This document shows, piece after piece, positions 1 through 17,504 of a DNA stretch of 27,090 nucleotides (the first letter of the stretch is position 1; each line of letters starts with the position of its first letter). The notes below the pieces were generated by a model. It had not been told where the DNA came from. It searched no databases and saw nothing but the letters and a program-made list of their open reading frames with translations. This DNA comes from a virus. Where the stretch lies: positions 1 through 27,090 of the IMG/VR virus record IMGVR_UViG_3300034190_002297; one strand, 5' to 3'. Made by a program: the position numbers and the translations under genes.

Positions 1-881
1 GCCGCTGATCTCATTTGGTCAAGCACTTCATCGAAATTTAAACGGCTGGCATAGGCTCCGACTAAATCCCGCACTTTCAATTCCAGAGAATGATTGTCAG
101 CGGCTTTTGCCTCATCCGATAACAACTGCCAATCGCCGGTATCCCGTGCGCTGGTCAGGTGACTAGTCCGGTTTTTGTTCTGTGTCTGCATCCCGTTCAG
201 ACATGCCAACGTCCAAGCGATTTGGAAGACTGAGATACTGCCGGAACCGACTTCGGAATTTGATAATCCGATGCCGTTTGCCATTAGATCGCCAACCGCC
301 GAACCGGTCCCAGTTTGGACCTCAGACTTCAGTCTTAAATACATGCGCCGCTCTGAAATATCTGCAGAGACAACCCGCCATTTTGCCTCGCTATCCATCA
401 ATTGCGGCAGGCTCGACTGCAACAGATTGACGTTGTCAAAAGTCTTGAAACGATCAGAAACAAACGCCCGTAAAATGCCCTTGTTTGGGTCATCCTGTTG
501 ACCACCGGCAAACGTCCTGAGCATCTTGCGCTTAGGCTCTTTTTCAAAATGCGCATTCAACAGTGCGTCGAACTCTGCCGGATAATTTGCCTGCAGGCGT
601 TTCGCGGTGCGCACATCAATATCTGCATGGTTGGCAAGTTGACCAAATGCCACAGAATTGATGTCCAGAATTTTCGTTGGCTCACCATGCGCGGCTTCAA
701 TGATCATTTGCGGTGCGCCGTCTTCGCTGGTGCTTTTCTGCAAATCGTTTGTGGGCGCGAGATAGTCTGCAGACCGTGCCGCTTGATCCGCGACTTTCTG
801 CATCAGCGACATCAGTGCGCCGTTTTCGTTTTCGATATGGTGCGCAGTTTGGGCGGGGATATTGTTTACGTGCATATTCAT
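1..881 (-). CDS. DUF932-family protein, 3' end outside window
   Basis: An open reading frame runs from the ATG at 881 down to base 1 with no stop, about 293 codons, so the C-terminus is cut by the window edge. The segment GILRAFVSDRFKTFDNVNLL (about residues 127-146) is the signature stretch of DUF932 (phage/plasmid-like TIGR03299) proteins, which are common on plasmids and phages and have no established biochemical role. An in-frame GTG at 893 is an alternative start; neither start has a convincing Shine-Dalgarno. It is the most distal gene of the minus-strand accessory cluster, about 100 bases after the papain-like gene. The plus-strand frames over it are antisense shadows. Family call is from pattern memory. 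Confidence 0.8.
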   Translation of the reverse strand, partial: MNMHVNNIPAQTAHHIENENGALMSLMQKVADQAARSADYLAPTNDLQKSTSEDGAPQMIIEAAHGEPTKILDINSVAFGQLANHADIDVRTAKRLQANYPAEFDALLNAHFEKEPKRKMLRTFAGGQQDDPNKGILRAFVSDRFKTFDNVNLLQSSLPQLMDSEAKWRVVSADISERRMYLRLKSEVQTGTGSAVGDLMANGIGLSNSEVGSGSISVFQIAWTLACLNGMQTQNKNRTSHLTSARDTGDWQLLSDEAKAADNHSLELKVRDLVGAYASRLNFDEVLDQMRSA

Positions 882-981
882 TTTGGTGGTCACTTTCTGC
901 CCCGTGGGGCTGTGGTTGGTTGGCCGTCTCATCAGTACAGGTTTGGCCTTGATCCTGCAGACGGGGTTGCCCCCGTTTCGA

Positions 982-2568: not shown

Positions 2569-2871
2569 TCAAGCGTCCACCGCTACCGGTTCCTCAACCG
2601 TGTGCAGTACCATTACGTCTTCGCTGTCGGAATAAATTCCGCAGGTAATCCGCTGTAGTTTTAACCGATAGTCACGGGGTTCTAGAGCGTTCAGCCAATC
2701 GACATATTCAGCCGCCGCCCATGCGATAAAATCGGACCTCTCACGGGTGCCATCCCGCTGCAGCCCCCGCCGGACAGGCAGGCCTTGGGGGTCGATCCAC
2801 TGCGCCATCACCGTCAGGTTTGGCCGGTATCTCAGCCGGACAAGGTGGCCGTGCAAAATTGGATCAGTCAT
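2569..2871 (-). CDS. Hypothetical protein (100 aa)
   Basis: I chose the ATG at 2871 rather than the frame's upstream ATG at 2940. It is preceded by GGAGG at seven bases and makes an ATGA overlap with the stop of the upstream gene, a classic coupling signal. The product begins MTDPILHGHLVRLRYR and has WIDPQGLPVRRG and AEYVDWLNAL segments, with an acidic, valine-rich tail. There are no transmembrane segments or recognised motifs, and I do not recognise the family. GC is visibly high (42 of 60 bases in 2761-2820), unlike the plus-strand phage genes further right. Confidence 0.6.
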   Translation of the reverse strand: MTDPILHGHLVRLRYRPNLTVMAQWIDPQGLPVRRGLQRDGTRERSDFIAWAAAEYVDWLNALEPRDYRLKLQRITCGIYSDSEDVMVLHTVEEPVAVDA

Positions 2872-3194
2872 GCGCTGGCCTCCAATTTTTTTATGATCAA
2901 GTTGAGCCTGCGCGGGTTGGCGATAATAGCAGACCGGCACCGTGGCCGTTTTTTAAAAAATGCAATGCCCCGTGGCGTCTGGCCGTACATCTGTTTTTTC
3001 CATTCTGTGCCGAGGCCTAGGTCTTTGCGCGGCCTGCCCTGAGACATAGGTAAGCATGTGGTCATATGCCTGCCTCTGCCTTCGGTGAAATCGCCGGACG
3101 CGGCGGTGTAGTTTTGCGCCTGTAGGATGCGCAGGCCTCGTTCCTCAGATGCGGATATGCGCAGGGTAGACCCTGCAATTTCAATAGTTTTCAT
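2868..3194 (-). CDS. Hypothetical basic protein (108 aa)
   Basis: The start is set at the ATG at 3194 (MKTIEIAGSTLRIS), with AAGGA about nine bases upstream; the frame is open to 3302 but without a better start. The C-terminal half is rich in Lys/Arg (RPRKDLGLGTEWKKQMYG, KKRPRCRSAIIANPRRLNL), as in small DNA-binding phage proteins, though no helix-turn-helix is evident. It is the first gene of the upper minus-strand pair, transcribed away from the dyad operators at 3293-3335, so it is probably the gene they control. Function is unknown. Confidence 0.55.
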   Translation of the reverse strand: MKTIEIAGSTLRISASEERGLRILQAQNYTAASGDFTEGRGRHMTTCLPMSQGRPRKDLGLGTEWKKQMYGQTPRGIAFFKKRPRCRSAIIANPRRLNLIIKKLEASA

Positions 3195-3292
3195 TTTCGT
3201 TTTTCCTTTGTGGTTGGTCACCGGATCGATCACCGGTCCAGCCCCGCTACCATACCACCAGACCAGCCGATGCGCCACCAGCAAACGCCACG

Positions 3293-3335
3293 TTAGAATC
3301 ATTCTAAAACAGCACCTAGATGAGAATGATTCTCA
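3293..3335. promoter_or_regulatory. Tandem Fur/Irr-like dyad operators
   Basis: Two perfect 7-1-7 palindromes lie 28 bases apart centre to centre: TTAGAATCATTCTAA (3293-3307) and TGAGAATGATTCTCA (3321-3335). They share the core AGAAT-N-ATTCT. The second differs from the classic Fur 7-1-7 site TGATAATnATTATCA by one symmetric pair; the first has the TTAGAA-N3-TTCTAA form of alphaproteobacterial Irr (ICE) boxes. They sit in the divergent region between the minus-strand cluster and the 64-aa plus-strand gene. Binding by Fur, Irr or a phage repressor is inferred only. Confidence 0.65.
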
Positions 3336-3365
3336 TTCGCAGCCAGCGAAAAAATCCCGATCCCG

Positions 3366-3383
3366 ACCACCACCACCACCACC
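3366..3383. repeat. ACC trinucleotide run (6 units)
   Basis: Six consecutive ACC units lie in the intergenic region. This is a simple low-complexity tract with no assigned function. It marks roughly where the GC-rich left segment gives way to the AT-richer phage segment. Confidence 0.6.
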
Positions 3384-3429
3384 CGTAAGTATGTGTTTCA
3401 ACTATTCCGTATTCCGGTAAGATTTGCGG

Positions 3430-3455
3430 TGTGAAATGACTTTGACGCGCAAGTA
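3430..3455 (+). repeat. 26-base direct repeat, copy A
   Basis: The copy begins TGTGAAATGA and ends TGACGCGCAAGTA. Copy B at 3737-3762 matches at 24 of 26 bases. Both copies contain the 11-base word TGACGCGCAAG. The pair flanks the 64-aa gene at 3520-3714. Confidence 0.8.
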
Positions 3456-3519
3456 TTTTTTTGGTAACTAACTCACACTTAGTTTTTTAGTTATATCCAA
3501 CCACAAGAAAGTTTAACGA

Positions 3520-3714
3520 ATGGCAATATTTACAACCAATGAGGCAGAGCAAATTAATCAAACTATTAACCACGCAGTAGAACTAGCAAACAAGCACTCT
3601 ACTACTTACTGTGTTGTTTACATTGATAAATTTAAGACCACCATACCCATGAGAGCAGAACCCTGCCCGTCTGAGTTCGGTTGGCAAATAGTCATGAAGA
3701 TAACCCCAGACTAA
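3520..3714 (+). CDS. Hypothetical protein (64 aa) in a repeat-flanked cassette
   Basis: The product starts MAIFTTNEAEQINQTINHAV and has a helical N-terminal half followed by a strand-rich part (TTYCVVYIDKFKTTIPM). I do not recognise the family. The ribosome site is weak (AAGAAAG about eight bases before the ATG). The gene stands alone: it follows the dyad operators and repeat copy A, and is followed by an 18-base palindrome, repeat copy B and a strong terminator, so it is a monocistronic unit. An inverted repeat AACTAA/TTAGTT lies at about 3467-3484 in its leader. A small regulator is plausible but unproven. Confidence 0.55.
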   Translation: MAIFTTNEAEQINQTINHAVELANKHSTTYCVVYIDKFKTTIPMRAEPCPSEFGWQIVMKITPD

Positions 3715-3715
3715 C

Positions 3716-3733
3716 TTGTTAGCATACTAACAA
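3716..3733. promoter_or_regulatory. 18-base palindrome after the 64-aa gene
   Basis: TTGTTAG, CATA and CTAACAA form a perfect dyad starting two bases after the stop codon. There is no T-tract, so it is more like an operator or an mRNA-end hairpin than a terminator. The terminator proper follows at 3765. Confidence 0.6.
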
Positions 3734-3736
3734 TGC

Positions 3737-3762
3737 TGTGAAATGAGTCTGACGCGCAAGTA
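3737..3762 (+). repeat. 26-base direct repeat, copy B
   Basis: This is the partner of copy A (3430-3455), with two substitutions, both in the short segment between the conserved TGTGAAATGA and TGACGCGCAAGTA blocks. It lies directly between the palindrome at 3716 and the terminator at 3765. Confidence 0.8.
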
Positions 3763-3764
3763 AG

Positions 3765-3790
3765 AAGCCCTCTGTTTTAGGGGGCTTTTT
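3765..3790 (+). terminator. Rho-independent terminator of the 64-aa gene
   Basis: AAGCCCTC, a seven-base loop and GGGGGCTT form an 8-bp stem with one wobble, ending in a run of five T (3786-3790). It separates the 64-aa unit from the integrase operon. Confidence 0.85.
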
Positions 3791-3819
3791 CATATTTAAA
3801 TCCCTTTGAATTATTTTAG

Positions 3820-3848
3820 TTGACACTCTGCAAGGTGGCGGGTTAGGT
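3820..3848 (+). promoter_or_regulatory. Probable sigma-70 promoter of the integrase operon
   Basis: A consensus -35, TTGACA (3820-3825), is followed after 17 bases by TTAGGT (3843-3848), a weak -10. It lies after a terminator and about 40 bases ahead of the first gene of the operon. AAGGTGGCG lies in the spacer. Confidence 0.5.
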
Positions 3849-3890
3849 GTTCAACACTACCAACCACAATCACATGGAAAGCGACCACAA

Positions 3891-4220
3891 ATGCAAGCAG
3901 TTATAAATCTAAAACAGCGTATGCTAAATAAGAGCATCATCGATGCCAACGCCAGTGTCAGGAAGTTTCTGGCTGAAGAGACTGTCCTCTCGTATGATAA
4001 TATCCCAGTGGGCGGCAAGAATGGCGTACACATTCCAGCCTTGTTTCCAGACGGCACGAAGACAAAAATACACTTCTACCGCCGTCCTCGCGGTGATCGT
4101 CATCTTTGGATTAAAAAACTAGCCAAACACGCCAAAGACGGTGACATCATTACCATCAGCCGCGCCACTGGAAGTATCTGCAATCAATACCTTCAGATTG
4201 GAATCGAGGCGGCGGCATGA
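3891..4220 (+). CDS. Hypothetical protein upstream of integrase (109 aa)
   Basis: This is the first gene of the plus-strand operon. GGAAAG lies about eleven bases before the ATG. Readable segments include PDGTKTKIHFYRRPRGDRHLWIKK and AKDGDIITISRATG. The alternation of basic and aromatic residues would suit a nucleic-acid-binding protein, but I do not recognise a domain. Its last codons overlap the integrase start (ATGA at 4217), so the two are translationally coupled. An excisionase-like role is conceivable from position alone; no winged-helix or AlpA-type motif is visible. Confidence 0.6.
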   Translation: MQAVINLKQRMLNKSIIDANASVRKFLAEETVLSYDNIPVGGKNGVHIPALFPDGTKTKIHFYRRPRGDRHLWIKKLAKHAKDGDIITISRATGSICNQYLQIGIEAAA

Positions 4221-5320
4221 ATAAGCATCCTTATGTCCAAAGGTCCGAGACACGGGGGAAGTGGAAGGTCCACTTGCCTCGCGCAGTCCGGCAAGCCGTT
4301 GTAGGTGCTAAGTCTGGTACATACACTAGTAAGCAAGACGCCATAGATTATGCAGCCGAAGTACACTCAGCCTACACGTCATTCAGACAAGGCGAGTTAA
4401 CTGCGATAAACATCTCAGACCGGTCAGTCGCTGGTCTGATCAATCAATACCGGCAGACTAATAAGTACAAAACTCTCGCGGTAAGCAGTAAGCGGAATTA
4501 CAACCACTACTTCAATACCGCACTGCCTATTTGTATTGGCAATTCCAATACTGCCTTCAGGGACATGCTCACTGCCAACGTCACGGTCAAACACGCTGAG
4601 AAGTTGCAACAGCAAGTCGAGCAGTTGGTCAGTTACACCACATCATTCCAAGTGATAAACAAACTGTCGGTAGTCTGGAACCGTGGTATCAAGCTAGGTC
4701 TGGCTAGGTCTAATCCCTTCGCTGAGATGGGTCTGTCTAAACCACCGCCCCGCCGCCAGAAATGGACTGATGAGCAGTTTGCCGACTTCATAGCACACTG
4801 CGACAAGGTTGGTGGTTCTGGTCTGGTTAATCCGAAAGACAGTTGGTCTACAGTAGGCACTCACGTAATCCTGTGTATGCACTTAGCCCAACGTGCGGGT
4901 GATATGCGTACTCTTACATGGTCAAATTTAAATGACAGCGGCCTTCTGACGTTTACTCAGAAGAAAACCGGAAAGGTAATGGTCATGCCTATTACACAGT
5001 TAATTGAGGCTAGACTAAGATTACACCCACACGCCGCACATACTGATAACATCCTGCGCAATCCTAATACTAATGAGCCTTACACCGCCGACAACCTACG
5101 CCGCAGGTTTAGAACGCTGGCACGGGAAATGGGTCTGCCAGATGATATACAGGTGATGGATGCACGTAGAACAGCGGCTACCAATGCAGCCAATGCCGGA
5201 GCCACAGAAGCAGAGATCATGGCTCTGACCGGCCACACACGCCCTGAGACGCTACGGGAAATATACCAACTACGCACGGTAAAGCAACTGAACAACCTCA
5301 ACAGTAAGCGAGGTCTATGA
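4217..5320 (+). CDS. int: Phage tyrosine integrase
   Basis: This 367-aa tyrosine recombinase catalyses site-specific strand exchange between phage and host attachment sites. The N-terminal half (about 1-170) is the arm/core-binding region. The catalytic domain shows Arg226 in AQRAGDMRTLTW, a beta-hairpin Lys in QKKTGKV, Arg317 in MDARRTAAT, His340 in LTGHTRPE and nucleophile Tyr350 in REIYQL. The usual first His of box II (HxLR) is Met314 here; substitutions at that position are known in phage integrases. The gene overlaps both neighbours by four bases (ATGA). A candidate attachment site, the tRNA-Asp 3' half at 7539-7579, lies 2.2 kb downstream rather than next to the gene. Confidence 0.93.
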   Translation: MNKHPYVQRSETRGKWKVHLPRAVRQAVVGAKSGTYTSKQDAIDYAAEVHSAYTSFRQGELTAINISDRSVAGLINQYRQTNKYKTLAVSSKRNYNHYFNTALPICIGNSNTAFRDMLTANVTVKHAEKLQQQVEQLVSYTTSFQVINKLSVVWNRGIKLGLARSNPFAEMGLSKPPPRRQKWTDEQFADFIAHCDKVGGSGLVNPKDSWSTVGTHVILCMHLAQRAGDMRTLTWSNLNDSGLLTFTQKKTGKVMVMPITQLIEARLRLHPHAAHTDNILRNPNTNEPYTADNLRRRFRTLAREMGLPDDIQVMDARRTAATNAANAGATEAEIMALTGHTRPETLREIYQLRTVKQLNNLNSKRGL

Positions 5321-9086: not shown

Positions 9087-10298
9087 ATGTACCAATCACT
9101 AATTAAGTGCTGTTTGAATAATGAATTTTATTCAGACAATCAGGCTAGGCTAAGAGCCAGCCTCTTCGATGACACTGCTAGAGAAGTCTACAAAGCCATA
9201 GCCGCCAGCCATAGTAAATTTGCCAAGGACATTTCCCCTACAGATTTGATGGCGCAATGGAGAGCGGCTAATCCCTCGTCTACCGCTGCTTGGACCGCTG
9301 AAATTGATGATACTATAAATCACATTGCTGCAGCACCCGACATCGATCAGGAAATTGCTGCAGACGTTATAGCCAACCTTTGGCGGCAGTCAGTTGGTTT
9401 AGACATAGCCAACCTTGGTATTCTTATGTCTGAAGGCCAGACCAATGCTATGGACGATTTAAAGGCACTCCTAGACAAAGTGTCTAACGGTTATATGCCT
9501 GATGATTTCCCAGAGCCAAACGCACAAGACATATATGAGATGCTGGCGGTTGTGAGCAACGACAATCGTTTTAAATTTAATATCCAATCTGTGAGCAATC
9601 GTGTTTATGGGATTGGTCGCGGCGAGTTTATGATAGCTGCTGCTTATACTAACGTAGGCAAAACAGCATTTGGTGCGTCTTTGTCGGCGGCTCCGGCAGG
9701 TTTCTGCGAACAAGGTGCGCGGGTGCTGTACGTTTGCACCGAGGAATTAGCCTCTAGAGCAAGGCTTCGTGCCATCCAAGCATATACCAACCTAACTCAA
9801 GACGAAGTGGCCTTGGATATTAAATCAGCTATGGCGAGATATGCAGGCATAAATGATAGGCTACTGTACATAGATGCCCAAGGTTGGGACGTTTCATATT
9901 TGAGTGCTTATATTAATCACATTAGTCCTGACATTGTCATTATCGATATAGCCGATAAAATTGAAGTATCCGGTAAATTTAATGCAGGACATGAACGACT
10001 TAGAGAACTCTACTACCGTCTGCGTGAACTAGCTAAAACACACAATTGTGCGGTGATCGCTACCTCACAAGCCTCTGCAGATGCGGAAGGTAGAAGCAGG
10101 CTCACTATGAGTATGCTGGAAGGCTCTAAGGTTGGTAAGCAGAGTGAGGCAGATTTACTGATTGGTATTGGTAAGACTATCAATGATCAGGACGATGATA
10201 CCACTCGCTACATTAATATTATGAAGAATAAAATTTCTGGTTGGCATGGCCTGATACCTGTTATTTTAGAGGACAAGGTAAATCGCTATGTTGTGTAA
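9087..10298 (+). CDS. DnaB-like replicative helicase
   Basis: This 403-aa protein is a hexameric RecA-fold DNA helicase that would drive the phage fork. The N-terminal domain (about 1-130) is helical, as in DnaB. The ATPase core has Walker A AAYTNVGKTAF with Lys192, a Glu pair in VCTEELASRARLRA, Walker B DIVIIDIADKI with Asp287, and an ATSQASADAEGR sensor-type stretch. The first residue of Walker A is Ala rather than Gly, a tolerated change in phage DnaB-like proteins. An AAACGCCAC word lies 25 bases before the start. It pairs with the separate primase at 7744. Confidence 0.9.
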   Translation: MYQSLIKCCLNNEFYSDNQARLRASLFDDTAREVYKAIAASHSKFAKDISPTDLMAQWRAANPSSTAAWTAEIDDTINHIAAAPDIDQEIAADVIANLWRQSVGLDIANLGILMSEGQTNAMDDLKALLDKVSNGYMPDDFPEPNAQDIYEMLAVVSNDNRFKFNIQSVSNRVYGIGRGEFMIAAAYTNVGKTAFGASLSAAPAGFCEQGARVLYVCTEELASRARLRAIQAYTNLTQDEVALDIKSAMARYAGINDRLLYIDAQGWDVSYLSAYINHISPDIVIIDIADKIEVSGKFNAGHERLRELYYRLRELAKTHNCAVIATSQASADAEGRSRLTMSMLEGSKVGKQSEADLLIGIGKTINDQDDDTTRYINIMKNKISGWHGLIPVILEDKVNRYVV

Positions 10299-10443
10299 TA
10301 TGGAAAGTAAACTGCCGCTTTCCTTGGAATTATTCATACAGGCAATGGGCATCCTCAAACTAGAGGATGATACCCCTGCTCCTATTGTCAGCATTGAGCC
10401 AAGAGTGACCGTGTTGGACGCAGACGGGGAGCCTGACTTTTGA
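10288..10443 (+). CDS. Small hypothetical protein (51 aa)
   Basis: ATG at 10288 overlaps the helicase end by 11 bases and has AAGGT eight bases upstream; an in-frame ATG at 10300 is the alternative. The product begins MLCNMESKLPLSLELFIQAM and is acidic at the C-terminus (LDADGEPDF). Its TGA overlaps the TTG start of the polymerase (TTGA), so it couples helicase and polymerase translation. A small polymerase- or helicase-associated factor is possible; no motif supports it. Confidence 0.6.
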   Translation: MLCNMESKLPLSLELFIQAMGILKLEDDTPAPIVSIEPRVTVLDADGEPDF

Positions 10444-12602
10444 GTGATATACTTGTTTTAGATTTGGAAACCACTGTTGAACGAATAGCAGGCCGAATAG
10501 ATAATAGTCCGTATAATCCAAGTAACCGGATCGTATCAGCGCACTTCGGCTGGCTGGGTTGGGATGATGTGGATGACTATCATCATGCAGTTTACCATCA
10601 CATTGAGCAGTCACAATCGGACAGTACAGAGTCTCTCCGCGAGGCTCTCCGGAAGGCAAAAGTTCTAGTCTGCCACAACGCCAAATTCGATGTGTCTTGG
10701 CTGTTAGAAGCAGGCTTTGACGTGCCAGAAAAAATCTACTGTACTTTAATCGGGGAGTACCTGCTGTCTAAGGCCCAACGCAGGGATTTATCTCTGAAAG
10801 GTTCAGCGGAACGCAGAGGTCTGCGTAACCAGAAGAAATCAGACTTGATCGATCACTGGTTCCAAGACGGCGTGGATTTCTCTGAGATGCCACTGGCTAC
10901 TATGCTGGAATACGCAGAAGCAGATGTCAGAACCACCGCTGAACTGTACTTAGCGCAGATGGACGATTTTGACGCGCAAGAAAATAAATCTCTCATCACT
11001 GCCCGTGACCAGATGAATGAGATGCTGGTTTTTTTGGTTGAATTAGAGCGAAACGGTTGTTCCATTGATTTAGCCGCCTTGGACACTGTCGAGAAGGAGT
11101 TCCAAGCAGAGAAGGTAGAACTGACTGCCCGTCTGACTGAAATAGTCGAACAGGTTATGGGTGATACGCCAATAAACCTAAATTCTGGAGATGACATGAC
11201 TAAGGTCGTTTACTCCAGAGAGGTGATCGACAAGGCCATTCACAAGCAGACGTGGAACATAGGCACCAATGATGCGGGTAAATCACTTATGCCGCCTAGG
11301 ATGAGTTTGAATCAATTTTCAGACGCCGTCAGGGCTACCACCCGTGTGGTCGAGAAAACACAAGCGGTTTGTTGCTTTGACTGTAATGGATTTGGTTCGA
11401 TACAAAAGTTCAAGGTCAAAACTAAAACTAAGCTGGGCAAGAAGTACCGCATCCAGACCGAAGAGCCATACAAGAATAGGACTAAATGTAAAACTTGCGG
11501 CGGTCTGGGTGCTATCTACCAGCCAACCGGTGAAACCGCCGGTCTGAGAATGATCCCTACCGGACCATCCTACGCCGCTGCCGGTGGATTTAAGACCGAC
11601 AAGGAAACCATCCAGACTTTGATCGGAGTAGCCACACGCAAGAGAAAGCCGGTGGCAGTTGAATTTCTAACCAAATTATCACGCTTATCGGCTGTCTCAG
11701 TTTATCTCGACAGTTTTGTAGCCGGACTTAAAAGAGGTACGCGCAAGAATGGAATACTACATGCAAATTTTAATCAGTGTATTGCTGCTACTGGTAGGCT
11801 GTCTTCTAGCAATCCTAACGCTCAAAACTGGCCCAAGCGAGGGTTCCCTGTACGCAGGGCTATTGTGTCTAGGTTTGATGATGGCCTGCTATTAGAGGCA
11901 GACTATAGTGGGTTGGAATTTAGGACGTGTGTTGAACTTAGTCGTGACGCGCAAGGACTAGCCGACATCCGAGAAGGCAAAGACATCCATCGCCAGACTG
12001 CCTCAATTTGCCTTCAGAAAGACCCAAAGGATGTGACCAAGGATGAACGTCAGGGCCATAAGTGGGCCTCGTTCCAACCCCTTTTCGGCGGCACTGGGGC
12101 AGGAATGGAGCCACATATCAAAGCGTATTTCGGCAAATTCTATGAGATTTATCGTGGCATAGAGGCTTGGCACAATTCTCTGATGACCGGCACTTTAAAG
12201 AACGGTATCGTTCAGACGCCGTCTGGTCGGCAGTACTACTGGCCTAATGTAGTTCGGACTAGAGGCAATAGAGTTAGTCATAGTACGCAGATATTAAATT
12301 ATCCGGTACAAGGGTTTTCTGCCGACATGGTTCAACTAGCGTGTATCCGCGCCTTACGCTTCTTTCGGCAGGCTAGTCTGAGAAGCAAACTTATCCTCAC
12401 TGTGCATGACAGCATAGTCGTAGATACGCACCCTGATGAGGTTGAACAGGTCAAATCCATACTGGTTGAAGCAATGACCCGTATTGATGAGGAGATGGTT
12501 ACACGTTTTGGATACAAGTGCGTAGTACCCTTTGATGTAGAAATTAGCGCAGGCAAAAACTGGCTTGATCAGGAAGAACTATCATTGACAAACGCCACTT
12601 AG
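10440..12602 (+). CDS. Family A DNA polymerase with DnaJ-type zinc insert
   Basis: This 720-aa replicative polymerase has a DnaQ-type 3'-5' exonuclease: Asp8/Glu10 (LVLDLETT), Asp84 (HNAKFD) and Tyr158/Asp162 (YAEAD). The polymerase domain shows motif A DYSGLEFR with Asp488, motif B around Lys541 (GHKWASFQPLFGG) and motif C HDS at 656-658. Between them, at about residues 311-355, lie CFDCNGFG (Cys312, Cys315) and CKTCGGLG (Cys350, Cys353), two CxxCxGxG knuckles like the DnaJ central domain. I recall this architecture from phage HMO-2011 relatives. The start is TTG, coupled to the previous stop, with GGGGAG upstream. Two TGACGCGCAAG words lie inside it. Confidence 0.95.
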   Translation: MSDILVLDLETTVERIAGRIDNSPYNPSNRIVSAHFGWLGWDDVDDYHHAVYHHIEQSQSDSTESLREALRKAKVLVCHNAKFDVSWLLEAGFDVPEKIYCTLIGEYLLSKAQRRDLSLKGSAERRGLRNQKKSDLIDHWFQDGVDFSEMPLATMLEYAEADVRTTAELYLAQMDDFDAQENKSLITARDQMNEMLVFLVELERNGCSIDLAALDTVEKEFQAEKVELTARLTEIVEQVMGDTPINLNSGDDMTKVVYSREVIDKAIHKQTWNIGTNDAGKSLMPPRMSLNQFSDAVRATTRVVEKTQAVCCFDCNGFGSIQKFKVKTKTKLGKKYRIQTEEPYKNRTKCKTCGGLGAIYQPTGETAGLRMIPTGPSYAAAGGFKTDKETIQTLIGVATRKRKPVAVEFLTKLSRLSAVSVYLDSFVAGLKRGTRKNGILHANFNQCIAATGRLSSSNPNAQNWPKRGFPVRRAIVSRFDDGLLLEADYSGLEFRTCVELSRDAQGLADIREGKDIHRQTASICLQKDPKDVTKDERQGHKWASFQPLFGGTGAGMEPHIKAYFGKFYEIYRGIEAWHNSLMTGTLKNGIVQTPSGRQYYWPNVVRTRGNRVSHSTQILNYPVQGFSADMVQLACIRALRFFRQASLRSKLILTVHDSIVVDTHPDEVEQVKSILVEAMTRIDEEMVTRFGYKCVVPFDVEISAGKNWLDQEELSLTNAT

Positions 12603-12614
12603 TTATGGTAAAAT
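12585..12614 (+). promoter_or_regulatory. Sigma-70 promoter ahead of the SSB gene
   Basis: Consensus -35, TTGACA (12585-12590), and TAAAAT (12609-12614) are separated by 18 bases. The pair sits over the 3' end of the polymerase gene. The spacer starts inside an AAACGCCAC word (12590-12598). The predicted transcript would start near 12621, ahead of an AAGGAG ribosome site. Confidence 0.7.
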
Positions 12615-12638
12615 GAATGTTCAAATCAAGGAGACAAA

Positions 12639-13466
12639 ATGTCTGATATAATTCCCGCAGAAGGTGGCCTGACGCCAGATGAATTGGCTGCAATGCTGGG
12701 TGCTGCAGATGCGCCAAAATCGGTTAGAATACCGGCCTTAAAGATCAATTCTCAGGGCGAAGACAAAGACGGCAACCAAATTCCACTGGGTGCATTCTTT
12801 TTAAATACAGAGGAAGAACGTGTCTATGCCAAGGATGGTGTAGTGCTTCATGCTCTATCAAATCACATCCAGTATATGCACTGGGACGATGGTAGGCTAG
12901 TCAACAAGTCCAGACTTATTATTGATAGACGAGAAGAAGCGCGTGATCAACTAGGTGGCACAATGTGCGGTATGCCAACATACGAGCAGTCGGTTCAGAT
13001 GACGCCAGAGCAGCGGAAAGAGTACGAAGGCCGTGATCGCTATCGTGTGGTACGTGGTCTAGTATCATATACAGGCAAGACTGCTTCCGGAGAAGAACGT
13101 ACCATTGAAAATGAGCCGGTGATCCTGTCTCTAAAGCGCAAGAACTATGGGCCGTTCTACCATGATGTAATCAAGCGCATCCCGTCTGATAGTAAGTTCA
13201 TTTATTTTCGTTTGGCTCTTACGGCTGACAAGCAGACCACCGAGAAGGGTGCTAAATATTATGTTATGCGCTTTAGCCCTGATCTGCAGAATAAAATCAC
13301 TCTAGACCAGAAAATGTATGACAGTATGAATGCAGTCGCAGGTATGGTGAAGGCTGAAAATGATCGTATTGATAAATCTTACTTCGATGCGATTGCCCGT
13401 AAAGCAGACGAGGCTGAACAAGACAGAATAATGAAAGAGGTTAACACTCTAGAACACGACTTTTAA
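12639..13466 (+). CDS. Probable ssDNA-binding protein (gp2.5-like role)
   Basis: This 275-aa protein follows the polymerase and precedes a RecE-like exonuclease. It has its own promoter and a strong AAGGAG ribosome site, as expected for an abundant protein. The central part is strand-rich (VRIPALKINSQGEDKDGNQI, RYRVVRGLVSYTG, YYVMRFSPD), compatible with an OB-fold. The C-terminus ends acidic with a terminal Phe (EVNTLEHDF), the tail type of T7 gp2.5 and bacterial SSB. I do not see a named family motif, so the call rests on tail, position and expression signals; a recombination mediator is the main alternative. Confidence 0.55.
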   Translation: MSDIIPAEGGLTPDELAAMLGAADAPKSVRIPALKINSQGEDKDGNQIPLGAFFLNTEEERVYAKDGVVLHALSNHIQYMHWDDGRLVNKSRLIIDRREEARDQLGGTMCGMPTYEQSVQMTPEQRKEYEGRDRYRVVRGLVSYTGKTASGEERTIENEPVILSLKRKNYGPFYHDVIKRIPSDSKFIYFRLALTADKQTTEKGAKYYVMRFSPDLQNKITLDQKMYDSMNAVAGMVKAENDRIDKSYFDAIARKADEAEQDRIMKEVNTLEHDF

Positions 13467-13469
13467 AAA

Positions 13470-14234
13470 GTGGGTGTAATAGAGAATATGACCAATGAGG
13501 ATTATCACGCGACTGCTGATATTTCCTCTACCGTAGTTAAGACTGTATGGAAGAAGTCTCTGGCTCACTGGAAGGGCCAGAAATTCACCTCTACTGCCGC
13601 CCTACTAATAGGTTCGGCACTTCATGGCATACTGCTAGAGCCTCATAGGGAGATAGCGATTAAAGGACCGAAGACCAGACGGTCCAAGGCCTATACTGAG
13701 ATGGAGAGAGACTTAGGTCCGGATCAGGTGCTGCTTACTGAAGGTGAGTGGTACTTAGTCAAAGGGATGACTAAGTCAGCAATGGCTAATCCGGCGTTTC
13801 GGAAGGTGCTTGAGCATCCAGACCGTAAAAACGAAGTGTCAATCTTTGCGGAGTGTCCCAGTACTGGTATTTCCGTAAAAGCGCGGCCTGACTGCATGGT
13901 CAAGGGGGTTGTCTACGATGTTAAATCTACCGTCGACAGTAGTCCATCGGGCTTTGCGAAAGAGTGCTGGAAGTATGCGTATCCAATCCAAGCTGCTTAT
14001 TACTTATACGTCTGCAAGTTGGCTCAAGTTGACGTGGAAGAGTTCTCCTTTTTAGCAATAGAAAAGACGGCTCCATACGTTGCCCACCAGCATGTTGTAG
14101 GTCCAGAGTTAATGGAATGGGCGCATGAACAGGTGCTGGCAACCCTACGCCGTATAGCAGACGCCAAACAGCTAGACGATTACGGCACGGGCTGGGGTGA
14201 CTTTACCCTGCTTGAGAAGCCCAAGTGGCTATAA
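13470..14234 (+). CDS. RecE-like PD-(D/E)XK exonuclease (DUF3799 type)
   Basis: This 254-aa nuclease of the exodeoxyribonuclease VIII/PDDEXK type probably resects DNA ends for phage recombination. Family landmarks are the N-terminal GVIENMTNEDYHATADISS, ALLIGSALHGILLEP, and the active site Asp141 (ARPD) with Asp150-x-Lys152 (YDVKST), then a helix with QAAYYLY. The GTG at 13470 is preferred over ATG 13488 because the family starts with G-V/I-Y-N-x-x-NEDYH; no clear ribosome site is visible for either. It lies three bases after the SSB-like gene and overlaps the next nuclease by ten bases. Confidence 0.82.
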   Translation: MGVIENMTNEDYHATADISSTVVKTVWKKSLAHWKGQKFTSTAALLIGSALHGILLEPHREIAIKGPKTRRSKAYTEMERDLGPDQVLLTEGEWYLVKGMTKSAMANPAFRKVLEHPDRKNEVSIFAECPSTGISVKARPDCMVKGVVYDVKSTVDSSPSGFAKECWKYAYPIQAAYYLYVCKLAQVDVEEFSFLAIEKTAPYVAHQHVVGPELMEWAHEQVLATLRRIADAKQLDDYGTGWGDFTLLEKPKWL

Positions 14235-14578
14235 CGCCGTCCAGTGCCAAGGCTAAAGGGCGCAAACATCAACAATGGGTGCGGGATCAAATTCTCGCAC
14301 TCTTCCCTAAAAAATTGGAAAAAGACGATGTGCGCAGCACCAGCATGGGGTGTGGCGGCGAGGACATCCAACTCAGCCCACTGGCCCGTAGGCTGTTTCC
14401 ATACAGCGTAGAATGCAAGGCAAACAAGGCTTTCGCTATTTACAAGATCATGGAACAGGCCACCGACAACTGCCCAAAAGGTGCCACTCCCTTGGCAATA
14501 ATTAAGGGTGATCGTCAGAAGCCATTGGCGGTGATTGACGCGCAAGAATTTTTCCAACTGACCAAAAAAGGCCGATAA
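14225..14578 (+). CDS. Small PD-(D/E)XK endonuclease, possible junction resolvase
   Basis: This 117-aa protein starts at GTG 14225 inside the end of the exonuclease gene. It begins with a basic patch (AKAKGRKHQQWVRDQI) and has GCGGEDIQLSP with Glu46/Asp47, then VECK with Glu63 and Lys65. That spacing and the downstream EQA helix match short phage PD-(D/E)XK nucleases that act as Holliday-junction resolvases or T7 endonuclease I analogues. It probably resolves replication or recombination intermediates, working with the exonuclease and SSB-like gene. It carries a TGACGCGCAAG word (14536-14546). The substrate is inferred. Confidence 0.75.
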   Translation: MAITPSSAKAKGRKHQQWVRDQILALFPKKLEKDDVRSTSMGCGGEDIQLSPLARRLFPYSVECKANKAFAIYKIMEQATDNCPKGATPLAIIKGDRQKPLAVIDAQEFFQLTKKGR

Positions 14579-14904
14579 TGGAAATCGAAGATTTTGACGA
14601 GAACGTCCTAGCAATAATTATGACTATCAACGAAGAGGATCATTCTTTTGACCTCAAGGTTGGACATTCTCTGTCCGACGAGATGGATGAGGAAGACAGG
14701 CATTTCTATTTGGATGTCCTCAACGGGCTGATGATATCCATGCGGGAAGGTATCGATAAACTAGCCTTTGATGGGATGATGGCGCGGCACATGTCTCGCA
14801 TGATTGAGAGGTCTATGCCTGAGAATGCTGATCCGGAAGAAGTCCTAAAAGACATCCTTGGTGACAGCGAAAATGTAGTGGCCTTTAAAAGGAAACTGCA
14901 CTGA
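14578..14904 (+). CDS. Hypothetical acidic protein (108 aa)
   Basis: The start overlaps the nuclease stop (TAATG) and the end overlaps the DUF3310 start (TGATG). The protein is acidic and helical, with a methionine-rich middle (MARHMSRMIERSMPE) and the segment DEMDEEDRHFYLDVLNGLM. It has no membrane segment, zinc ligands or catalytic motif. I do not recognise it; conserved position in a replication operon would suggest an accessory replication or regulatory role. Confidence 0.65.
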   Translation: MEIEDFDENVLAIIMTINEEDHSFDLKVGHSLSDEMDEEDRHFYLDVLNGLMISMREGIDKLAFDGMMARHMSRMIERSMPENADPEEVLKDILGDSENVVAFKRKLH

Positions 14905-15170
14905 TGGCTAAATGGGCAGAACAAGAATGGCATCAAGGCGCAATTGACCATCCAAATATGGTGCATAAACCGCCACATTATAACGAAGGCACGATTGAGT
15001 GCATTGAGTACATTGAGGACTTCCTTAGTAAAGAAGAATACATAGGCTACCTGCGCGGTAACATTGCTAAATACCAGCATAGGTGGCGGTACAAAGGCGG
15101 CGTACAGGACTTAAATAAATCTCGTTGGTACTTAGACCGGTTAATTTCCGAATTGGAGACTGACCAGTGA
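14904..15170 (+). CDS. DUF3310-family protein
   Basis: This 88-aa protein carries the full DUF3310 pattern: KPPHYNEGTIECIEYIEDFL (residues 22-41), then EYIGYLRGNIAKYQHRWRYK, then DLNKSRWYLDRLI. The family is common in phages and is related to a region of T7 gp1.7, a nucleotide kinase, but the short stand-alone members lack demonstrated activity. Here it sits directly before the MazG-like and ribonucleotide reductase genes, which supports a link to nucleotide metabolism. It overlaps both neighbours by a few bases. Confidence 0.82.
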   Translation: MAKWAEQEWHQGAIDHPNMVHKPPHYNEGTIECIEYIEDFLSKEEYIGYLRGNIAKYQHRWRYKGGVQDLNKSRWYLDRLISELETDQ

Positions 15171-15607
15171 TCACTCAACAAGACATAGATGATGTAGCTT
15201 CTCTGGCTGATCCTCTTCCGGTCCAAACTCCCTTAAAAATGGTCAGGCAATTTGCCACTGCAATGGGCCACCCATTAGATGAAAAATGGCGTTTTAACCG
15301 TGATCTTGAGGATTTGAGATACCGGCTGGTGGCAGAGGAATTTGGCGAGTTTTCTGACGAGAGTGACGCCGGTAATCGGCCTGCAGCCATGCTCTCAGAA
15401 TTAGCCGACATTGTGTATGTAACCTACGGCTACGCTGCCACCTTTGGCTGGGACTTGGACGAGGCAGTTAGGCGCATCCACACAGCAAATATGAGCAAAC
15501 TAGGGCCGGATGGTAAACCTCTGTACCGGCCTGATGGCAAGGTTCTCAAAGGACCAAATTACAGAAAAGCAGACCTATCAGATTTAGTAAGGACCGAAAA
15601 TGAATAG
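15167..15607 (+). CDS. MazG-like nucleotide pyrophosphohydrolase
   Basis: This 146-aa all-helical NTP/PRA-PH type hydrolase has the metal-binding pattern Glu57, Glu58 and Glu61 in LVAEEFGEF, then Glu78/Asp81 in ELADIVYV. It ends with a family-typical RIHTANMSKLGPDGKPLYRPDG segment. Such enzymes cleave nucleoside triphosphates to monophosphates; in marine phages they are thought to adjust nucleotide or alarmone pools. The start is GTG 15167 overlapping the DUF3310 stop (GTGA). It overlaps the ribonucleotide reductase gene by eight bases, so they are co-translated. Confidence 0.87.
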   Translation: MITQQDIDDVASLADPLPVQTPLKMVRQFATAMGHPLDEKWRFNRDLEDLRYRLVAEEFGEFSDESDAGNRPAAMLSELADIVYVTYGYAATFGWDLDEAVRRIHTANMSKLGPDGKPLYRPDGKVLKGPNYRKADLSDLVRTENE

Positions 15608-17504
15608 TAACTACCTACCCACAGACTACCAGACATTCATCGCAACCAGCCGCTACGCACGTTGGCTGGAAGACGAAGGCCGAAGAGAAACGTGGTCTGA
15701 GACAGTGGATCGCTATATGAGTAATATCGTCAATACTTGGCTCAAGCCTGTCGATCAGGCCGACATACGTGATGCAATCCTTTCACTCAGCGTTATGCCT
15801 AGCATGAGGTCGTTGATGTGCGCCGGAGAGGCCAGTAGGCGTGACAATACTTGCATGTATAATTGCTCTTATCTAGCCGTAGATGACCCTAAGTGTTTCG
15901 ACGAGGCTATGTTTATCCTGCTCTGTGGCACTGGTGTCGGATTCTCTGTCGAGCAGCAGTACATCAATCTCCTTCCCGAAGTTCCTGACTTGTCGGAGTG
16001 TGAAACCACAATCGTCGTTAAGGATTCTAAGGAAGGTTGGGCGAAGGCTCTCAGACAAGTTCTAGCACTCCTATGGGCTGGTGAAATACCACAGTGGGAT
16101 GTCTCGCGTGTTCGTCCAGCCGGAGCAAGGCTGAAGACGTTTGGTGGCAGGGCATCTGGACCTGCACCATTGGTTGATCTGTTTAATTTTGCAGTGGCTA
16201 AATTTAAGGGTGCGCAAGGCCGCAAATTGTCCTCTTTGGAATGCCACGACATCATGTGCAAAATTGGAGAGGTGGTTGTGGTCGGCGGTGTTCGACGCAG
16301 TGCCATGATCTCATTGTCTAATTTAGAAGATGACAAGATGCGCCACGCTAAAGCAGGCACCGGTTGGTACGCAACAGAGAGTCAAAGAACTTTAGCAAAT
16401 AATTCAGTTGCTTACACCGAAAAACCCGACATGTCTGCATTCATGCGGGAGTGGGTAAGTCTCATGGAAAGTGGAACAGGTGAACGTGGTATCTTTAACC
16501 GTCAGGCTTGCAAAGATTTGGCAGAAAAATCTGGGCGTAGAAAATCTGACTATGCCTTCGGTTGCAACCCATGTTCGGAGATCAGCTTACGCCCAAACCA
16601 ATTTTGCAACCTTACAGAGGCGGTTATCAGGGCCACAGATACTATTGATGACATCGCGGAAAAGGTCCGACTTGCCACTATACTTGGTACTATCCAATCT
16701 ACATATACCAAGTTCCCTTACTTGCGGAAAATCTGGGCAGACAACACAGAAGAGGAGCGGCTGTTAGGCGTAAGTCTTACCGGTATTATGGACAACCCGC
16801 TGATGACGTTAGCCAATGAAGGTCTGGCTGATACTCTTGAGCATCTCAAACAAATAGCCATTGATACCAATAAAGAATGGTCTGAGAAATTGGGCATTCC
16901 ACAAAGTACAGCCATAAGTTGTGTTAAGCCAAGTGGTACGGTTTCACAATTGTGTGATAGTGCGTCTGGGATACACCCACGGCATTCTCCTTATTACATT
17001 CGTACCGTCAGGGGTGATTCCAAAGACCCTCTAACGAGACTTATGTCTGATCAGGGTATACCAAATGAGCCTTGTGTAAGTAAGGGAGATACAACCGTTG
17101 TATTCTCATTTCCGGTAAAATCTCCGGTAGGAGCAGTCCATACAAAAGACGTGTCTGCCATAGATCAACTAAAACTTTGGTTGGCGTACCAGCGGCATTG
17201 GTGTGAGCATAAACCTTCAATTACATGCAATATTAGGTCGCAGGAATGGTTACAGGTTGGTGCCTTTGTGTATGAGCATTTTGATGAGATGTCCGGAGTG
17301 TCGTTCCTTCCATTCGATGATCACATCTATCAGCAGGCTCCATATCAGGACTGTCAGGCTACTGACTATCACATCCTGCTAGATCAGATGCCCGAAAAAA
17401 TAGATTGGACGAAATTATCCGAATACGAATTAGAGGATACCACGTCTGGGATGCAGACATTAGCCTGTTCCGGAGACGTGTGTGAAATGGTTGATATAAC
17501 CTAA
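15600..17504 (+). CDS. Class II (B12-dependent) ribonucleotide reductase
   Basis: This 634-aa monomeric adenosylcobalamin-dependent reductase converts ribonucleotides to deoxyribonucleotides without oxygen or iron. Redox Cys89 lies in CMYNCSYLAV; the active-site loop NPCSEISL has Cys325 and Glu327, with the partner Cys336 in QFCNL, the same 11-residue spacing as in Lactobacillus RTPR. The C-terminal shuttle pair is Cys623/Cys628 (CSGDVC). It is complete for the family, with no visible gap or intein. It depends on host cobalamin. It overlaps the MazG-like gene and is the last gene of the replication operon. Confidence 0.94.
   Translation: MNSNYLPTDYQTFIATSRYARWLEDEGRRETWSETVDRYMSNIVNTWLKPVDQADIRDAILSLSVMPSMRSLMCAGEASRRDNTCMYNCSYLAVDDPKCFDEAMFILLCGTGVGFSVEQQYINLLPEVPDLSECETTIVVKDSKEGWAKALRQVLALLWAGEIPQWDVSRVRPAGARLKTFGGRASGPAPLVDLFNFAVAKFKGAQGRKLSSLECHDIMCKIGEVVVVGGVRRSAMISLSNLEDDKMRHAKAGTGWYATESQRTLANNSVAYTEKPDMSAFMREWVSLMESGTGERGIFNRQACKDLAEKSGRRKSDYAFGCNPCSEISLRPNQFCNLTEAVIRATDTIDDIAEKVRLATILGTIQSTYTKFPYLRKIWADNTEEERLLGVSLTGIMDNPLMTLANEGLADTLEHLKQIAIDTNKEWSEKLGIPQSTAISCVKPSGTVSQLCDSASGIHPRHSPYYIRTVRGDSKDPLTRLMSDQGIPNEPCVSKGDTTVVFSFPVKSPVGAVHTKDVSAIDQLKLWLAYQRHWCEHKPSITCNIRSQEWLQVGAFVYEHFDEMSGVSFLPFDDHIYQQAPYQDCQATDYHILLDQMPEKIDWTKLSEYELEDTTSGMQTLACSGDVCEMVDIT

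Follow-up and report, generated by a model that had tools for sequence, protein, structure and literature searches.

Paired Irr- and Fur-type candidate operators in a divergent control region of a marine phage genome fragment

Two short palindromes lie between the diverging operons of a marine phage, and both resemble boxes bound by iron regulators of alphaproteobacteria. The locus raises the question of whether phage genes could be tied to the iron status of the host, or whether the palindromes serve a repressor encoded by the phage itself.

The phage fragment and its divergent control region

The window, that is, the whole stretch of DNA analysed here, is a complete IMG/VR virus record of 27,090 bases. 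Pfam detected an integrase, ThyX and a DnaB-like helicase, and Roseobacter phage CRP-738 is the best alignment partner for the helicase, the polymerase and the RNR, in agreeing gene order (65% identity over 55% of window positions 9087-16900). Judging by these genes, best alignments and the matching order, the window is a 27 kb piece of a marine HMO-2011-type (roseophage-like) phage genome. It shares with the phages of this type (CRP-738, CRP-235, CRP-212 and HMO-2011) the order integrase, primase, helicase, polymerase, RNR and leftward structural genes. Compared with the 53.8 kb of CRP-738, about half of the phage genome is absent from the contig. An alignment search for prophages, aimed at the host, returned no integrase relative in cellular genome contigs; the likeliest host family is Rhodobacteraceae. 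The features of the control region and its surroundings are as follows.

3..932, minus strand: leftward gene cut by the window end, with a weak DUF932 match below the cut-off
2569..2868, minus strand: second leftward gene, of no family, with a 91% identical counterpart in the sister phage described below
2868..3194, minus strand: first leftward gene (108 aa), which matches no family in Pfam or PHROG
3293..3307, no strand assigned: site 1, Irr/ICE-type candidate operator TTAGAATCATTCTAA, a perfect 7-1-7 dyad nearer the leftward genes
3321..3335, no strand assigned: site 2, Fur-type candidate operator TGAGAATGATTCTCA, a perfect 7-1-7 dyad inside a Fur-like stretch at 3319-3340
3430..3455, plus strand: first copy of a direct repeat (TGTGAAATGACTTTGACGCGCAAGTA), preceding the first rightward gene
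3520..3714, plus strand: first rightward gene (64 aa), with 59% identity to its counterpart in the sister phage
3737..3762, plus strand: direct repeat copy 2, 92% identical, preceding a terminator-like hairpin at 3769-3784
3891..4220, plus strand: 109-aa protein predicted to fold as a B3 DNA-binding domain; the integrase gene follows
4217..5320, plus strand: tyrosine integrase (Pfam PF00589, E = 4.5e-12)

An earlier, sequence-only reading had described two perfect 7-1-7 dyads with the common core AGAATNATTCT, spaced 28 bp from centre to centre. Both are present as described, and a scan showed them to be the sole exact matches to AGAATNATTCT in the window. They lie between the leftward operon, whose start codon at 3194 is about 100 bp from site 1, and the rightward operon, which begins at 3520. 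The dyad of site 2 is part of a longer one of the form 8-1-8, and an imperfect second register overlaps it. A search of 3150-3900 detected no sigma-70-like promoter.

Perfect 7-1-7 dyads are in themselves no rarity: the window contains three, and 300 Markov-shuffled windows averaged 1.9 ± 1.3. Two AGAATNATTCT sites occurred in only one of the 300 shuffled windows, and two perfect dyads of the same core within 60 bp of each other in none. When up to two mismatches to AGAATNATTCT are allowed, the window has 24 matches against 15.4 expected, a number reached in 2 of 100 shuffles. The dyad pair exceeds chance.

Among the leftward genes found, none was recognised as iron-related or could be given a function. 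The 108-aa gene has one IMG/VR relative, at 34% identity, and the corresponding gene of the sister phage (L005, 338-745; 135 aa) is non-homologous to it (BLASTP E = 17). The first leftward gene is thus swapped between two close phages that have kept both the control region and the second gene, which marks a cargo position. A link of the truncated gene at 3-932 to gp63 of CRP-738 through DUF932 was considered and was left unconfirmed by BLASTP. On the rightward side, the 26-bp repeat, with core GACGCGCAAGTA, flanks the 64-aa gene. Its core is present in the sister phage and, in part, in CRP-235 and CRP-212, each time ahead of the first rightward gene, and the repeat is a candidate phage promoter, operator or site for the B3 protein.

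The AF2 model of the 109-aa protein (pLDDT 89.7, pTM 0.81) has B3 domains as its top matches in both Foldseek and VIA; the VIA comparison with the FUS3 B3 domain gave Z 11.1 and rmsd 2.5 with 96 aligned residues. The structural matches comprise plant transcription factors and EcoRII-, BfiI- and UbaLAI-type enzymes. B3 sequence homology was found neither in Pfam (22 members) nor among PDB sequences, and the fold match is one of structure only. The family is widespread (196 IMG/VR stretches) and is conserved before the integrase across HMO-2011-type phages, which suggests that this stand-alone protein is probably a phage regulator or an anti-restriction protein.

Correspondence with cellular Irr and Fur boxes

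The sequence-only reading had likened the first dyad to Fur boxes and the second to Irr boxes. Independent cellular data support the presence of both types, but the assignment has to be swapped. A motif from rubrerythrin (rbr) promoters and the enrichment of TGAGAATNATTCTCA before metal genes indicate that site 1 is of the Irr/ICE type and site 2 of the Fur/Mur type.

The rbr set consisted of the best 90 promoters from 190 Alphaproteobacteria genomes (107 with matches), weaker matches being excluded. Expectation maximization without a seed motif on these 90 promoters yielded TTTAGAATAATTCTAAA, with an estimated occupancy of 92% of the promoters. Boxes matching the ICE consensus in at least 11 of 12 positions occur in 51 of these 90 best promoters, compared with a shuffle mean of 0.15, and boxes with at least 10 of 12 lie upstream of rbr in 67 of them. 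Phage sequences did not contribute to the EM matrix, under which site 1 scores 18.7 bits and takes the top place in the window; this score was reached twice in 200 Markov windows. Site 1 also matches the ICE consensus TTAGAANNNTTCTAA in 12 of 12 positions. The same matrix ranks site 2 second in the window, a rank that is not significant alone (0.9 such matches per shuffled window). In one AT-rich alphaproteobacterial genome, ICE boxes with one mismatch were fewer than in the control. According to the accessible text of the sources, Irr represses under iron depletion (PMC3413700, PMC7540006); in S. meliloti the ICE of mbfA overlaps the −35/−10 core promoter, and mutation of its half-site TTCTAA led to loss of Irr repression (PMC7540006).

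For site 2, the best 19-mer Fur-box match is 15/19 in the window and 16/19 in the sister phage, measured against the consensus GATAATGATAATCATTATC as printed in PMC4506495, whose accessible text describes metal-dependent binding of an alphaproteobacterial Fur to the classical box. Exact TGAGAATNATTCTCA occurs at 19 sites in 17 of 337 Alphaproteobacteria genomes compared with a single site for the reversed control (about 19 to 1). Seven of 17 inspected TGAGAATNATTCTCA loci adjoin a clear iron or metal gene by Pfam (Iron_transport, ZnuA-type in three cases, FTR1, a TonB-dependent receptor and Rrf2), two are plausible (a cupredoxin and an ECF-type sigma factor), and the remaining eight have no obvious metal gene or fall inside coding sequence. 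A sample of 248 Rhodobacteraceae genomes contained eight TGAGAATNATTCTCA sites in seven genomes and no control sites. Half of these eight sites precede ZnuA-type genes (one by Pfam, three by eye), a context that fits Mur. The classical Fur 19-mer with at most three mismatches gave few sites in four alphaproteobacterial genomes, and in one AT-rich genome among them their number was below the control.

The two boxes also occur together in bacteria. A genome scan for TTAGAANNNTTCTAA followed, after a gap of 5-30 bp, by GAATNATTC returned at least 119 stretches. Of the 80 that were listed, 40 have alphaproteobacterial titles, and the contexts of 13 of those 40 loci were examined. Several of the 13 are Irr-type targets, with rubrerythrin beside a FUR-family (irr-like) gene in L164, L187 and L224; mbfA-, bfd- and iscS-like genes are found by eye among the other contexts. 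Pfam was used to check the FUR-family genes of these three loci and the rubrerythrin of L164, the rubrerythrins of L187 and L224 being recognised by eye; gene names for L165, L167, L186, L193, L216, L220, L230, L508, L511 and L512 likewise come from by-eye reading of the sequences. Between the irr-like gene and rbr, L164 has TTAGAATCATTCTAA followed by TGAGAATTATTCTCA, and L187 has TTAGAACTATTCTAA followed by TGAGAATAATTCTCA. In both loci the ICE is proximal to rbr and the boxes are 19 bp apart. The order is the one seen in the phage relative to its leftward genes, with a spacing of 19 versus 28 bp. TGAGAATNATTCTCA with at most one mismatch occurs nowhere else in the genomes of L164 and L187.

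Such pairs are infrequent: the strict pair pattern was found in 1 of 190 Alphaproteobacteria genomes, a loose pair in 3 of the 90 best rbr promoters, and the tandem pattern in 1 of the 248 genomes of the Rhodobacteraceae sample. Tandem ICE boxes are common in Alphaproteobacteria among the matches listed. The irr-like FUR-family gene and rubrerythrin form a conserved neighbourhood in L164, L187 and L224, accompanied by tandem ICE or ICE-plus-Fur boxes, and in L187 and L224 this neighbourhood also has an Fe-S oxidoreductase-like gene.

The sister phage and other viral sequences

A sister contig in IMG/VR (L005/L097) has an integrase 90% identical and a 109-aa gene 95% identical to those of the window, and its control region is alignable. 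Its site 1, TTAGAACTATTCTAA, retains the ICE match at 12/12, both changes falling in the three unspecified central bases, and scores 23.8 bits under the rbr EM matrix, above site 1 of the window. The sister's site 2, GAGTATGATAATCATTCTC, is the 16/19 Fur box in a shifted register. Around the sites, 12 of 70 bases differ between the two phages. When 12 substitutions were placed at random in 20,000 trials, the ICE match of 12/12 was kept in 8% and the sister's Fur score was reached in 1.6%; the ICE was kept jointly with a Fur match of at least 16/19 in 0.055% of the trials, and the reverse direction gave 1.3%. The identity between window and sister is 13/15 in site 1, 17/21 in site 2 and 71/95 in the leader. 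These values do not clearly set the sites apart from their surroundings, and what persists in this one sequence pair is the quality of the boxes.

The distribution of the pair is narrow. A scan of IMG/VR with the control region matched the sister contig only. The pair was found in 1 of 80 integrase relatives, the one being the sister itself, with about a quarter of the 80 having less than 900 bp upstream. Of the 109-aa gene 79 relatives were examined, 69 of which come with 900 bp or more of upstream sequence, and none of the 79 has the pair. Because these relatives lack the pair, it is unlikely to be a general target of the 109-aa protein. Matching dyads are also absent from the corresponding junction in CRP-738, CRP-235 and CRP-212. 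The pair seems to have been acquired locally.

Tandem dyads of the same core were found in 65 viral stretches, of which 31 have a terminase gene (by four query proteins) within 2.5 kb, often within 600 bp. Tandem AGAATNATTCT dyads stand just before terminase large-subunit genes in L098, L104, L127, L133 and related loci; some of these loci have the exact TTAG/TGAG pair, and some have GATAATGAGAAT hexamers. The L098 and L127 groups repeat the exact ICE-plus-TGAG pairing. Their terminases are nearest to those of pelagiphages (SAR11 phages), for L127 also to that of a Vibrio phage, and no dyads were found near the terminases of EXVC032P, Vibrio phage 1.262.O and HTVC023P. Two interpretations fit the terminase-linked dyads: further phages may exploit the iron regulators of their hosts, or the element may serve packaging or a regulator of the phage.

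Iron control by the host and its alternatives

We consider it moderately probable, from the sequence comparisons above, that host Irr and Fur control the leftward operon of the phage. The alternative raised by the sequence-only reading, that the dyads are operators of a phage-encoded repressor (for immunity or an early/late switch) reading or mimicking the AGAATNATTCT core, is in our estimate unlikely. Tandem dyads in the divergent promoter of an integrase-bearing phage have the classic geometry of repressor sites, in the viral contig L135 tandem TTAGAATCATTCTAA-type dyads immediately precede a small gene with a match to a transcriptional regulator in PHROG, a predicted B3-fold DNA-binding protein is encoded 560 bp away, and about half of the phage genome lies outside the contig. 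Pfam detected no HTH repressor in 19 ORFs of the window, a set that covers the large replication and structural ORFs in part, or in the 10 leftward genes of CRP-738 scanned. The statement in that reading that no repressor gene is visible nearby has to be amended for the B3-fold gene at 3891-4220, which is conserved in relatives and yet, in the 79 examined, unaccompanied by the pair. The two boxes, moreover, differ from each other and match two distinct cellular motifs. This last point also bears on the idea that one host Fur-superfamily regulator, Irr only or Fur/Mur only, binds both dyads cooperatively with no dual control, which we hold to be decidedly improbable. The AGAAT core is common to both dyads, and the tandem ICE boxes among the alphaproteobacterial matches listed are presumably bound by one protein; but the outer bases of the two dyads differ as the ICE and Fur motifs do, and the sister phage shifts site 2 towards GATAATCATT (Fur) and retains site 1 as an ICE.

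A DNA-structure or packaging element (a TerS or pac/cos-type site) in place of an operator would accord with the terminase gene near 31 of the 65 viral tandem-dyad stretches. We give it very little credence, as the terminases of HMO-2011-type phages are far from this region (at 43-46 kb of 53.8 kb in CRP-738) and the three named relatives with known hosts that were checked near their terminases are without dyads. Most improbable, in our judgement, is that the dyads reflect chance or some other alphaproteobacterial element, such as a CtrA site or the CcrM motif GANTC. Perfect 7-1-7 dyads arise about twice per shuffled window and GANTC lies inside both dyads of the window, but no shuffle reproduced a same-core pair within 60 bp. 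The GANTC reading was rejected on the sister phage, where the motif is missing from both sites. The CtrA reading was rejected as well: site 1 has the form TTAG-N7-CTAA, which in the window and in the sister agrees at best in 6 of 8 positions with TTAA-N7-TTAA, the CtrA site consensus given in the accessible text of PMC9437464.

Control of phage genes by host iron status is, we infer, the best reading, and it suggests the following scenario. Where the leftward operon diverges from the integrase/replication operon, the box closer to the leftward genes would be read by Irr and the more upstream one by Fur (or Mur). The host contains active Irr when it is short of iron or heme, and its Fur occupies DNA when Fe2+ (or Mn2+) is in good supply. 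By analogy with the rbr and mbfA promoters of cells, where the ICE is on or near the core promoter, the main effect of binding would be repression of the leftward genes. Irr may thus repress the leftward operon when iron is low, with Fur modulating it when iron is high. Expression of the operon could be tied to the iron state of the cell, and perhaps also to its peroxide state, since the matching cellular target is rubrerythrin. A more far-reaching version, which we regard as possible but doubtful, is that the phage captured or mimicked an irr-linked rubrerythrin-type promoter, by which host Irr and Fur would gate one arm of the phage according to iron and peroxide, and that this is a wider habit to which other marine phages with the pair before their terminases would belong.

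Iron limits bacterial growth across much of the ocean. If the proposed control is real, a common marine phage type couples gene expression, and possibly the choice between lysis and lysogeny, to the iron supply, and a second host global regulator, after CtrA, is exploited by alphaproteobacterial phages, in a group for which PMC9038755 and PMC6918029 name no repressor (the word has 0 occurrences in both). In the open literature that we could cover, which leaves out many journals, we found no description of a marine phage carrying paired operators of the Irr or Fur type.

The phage-borne gene stx1 is under host Fur. Diphtheria tox is likewise a phage-borne gene under iron control (accessible text of PMC13001254). 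Its repressor is DtxR, so that in both cases such a gene is tied to host iron via a host metalloregulator, as proposed for the phage in the window. Those are single toxin genes of pathogens, whereas the candidate here is the promoter of an uncharacterised operon in a marine phage, with Irr as a regulator. With the Irr-regulated ICE promoters of alphaproteobacteria (mbfA, rbr and bfr, as far as described in PMC3413700 and PMC7540006) the phage has the TTAGAANNNTTCTAA box in common; its box differs in standing before genes without assigned function, the boxes are spaced by 28 rather than 19 bp, and Irr binding is predicted. With the alphaproteobacterial Fur/Mur boxes, site 2 has in common TGAGAATNATTCTCA and 15-16 of the 19 positions of GATAATGATAATCATTATC, and it differs in lying in a phage control region with no recognisable iron gene downstream. 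The CtrA-controlled phage promoters of 'lytic deferment' likewise involve an alphaproteobacterial phage whose divergent intergenic region has sites bound by a global regulator of the host; in that system, according to the accessible text, the input is the cell cycle and binding was shown by EMSA, whereas in the present phage the predicted input is iron and the regulator a different one (PMC9437464).
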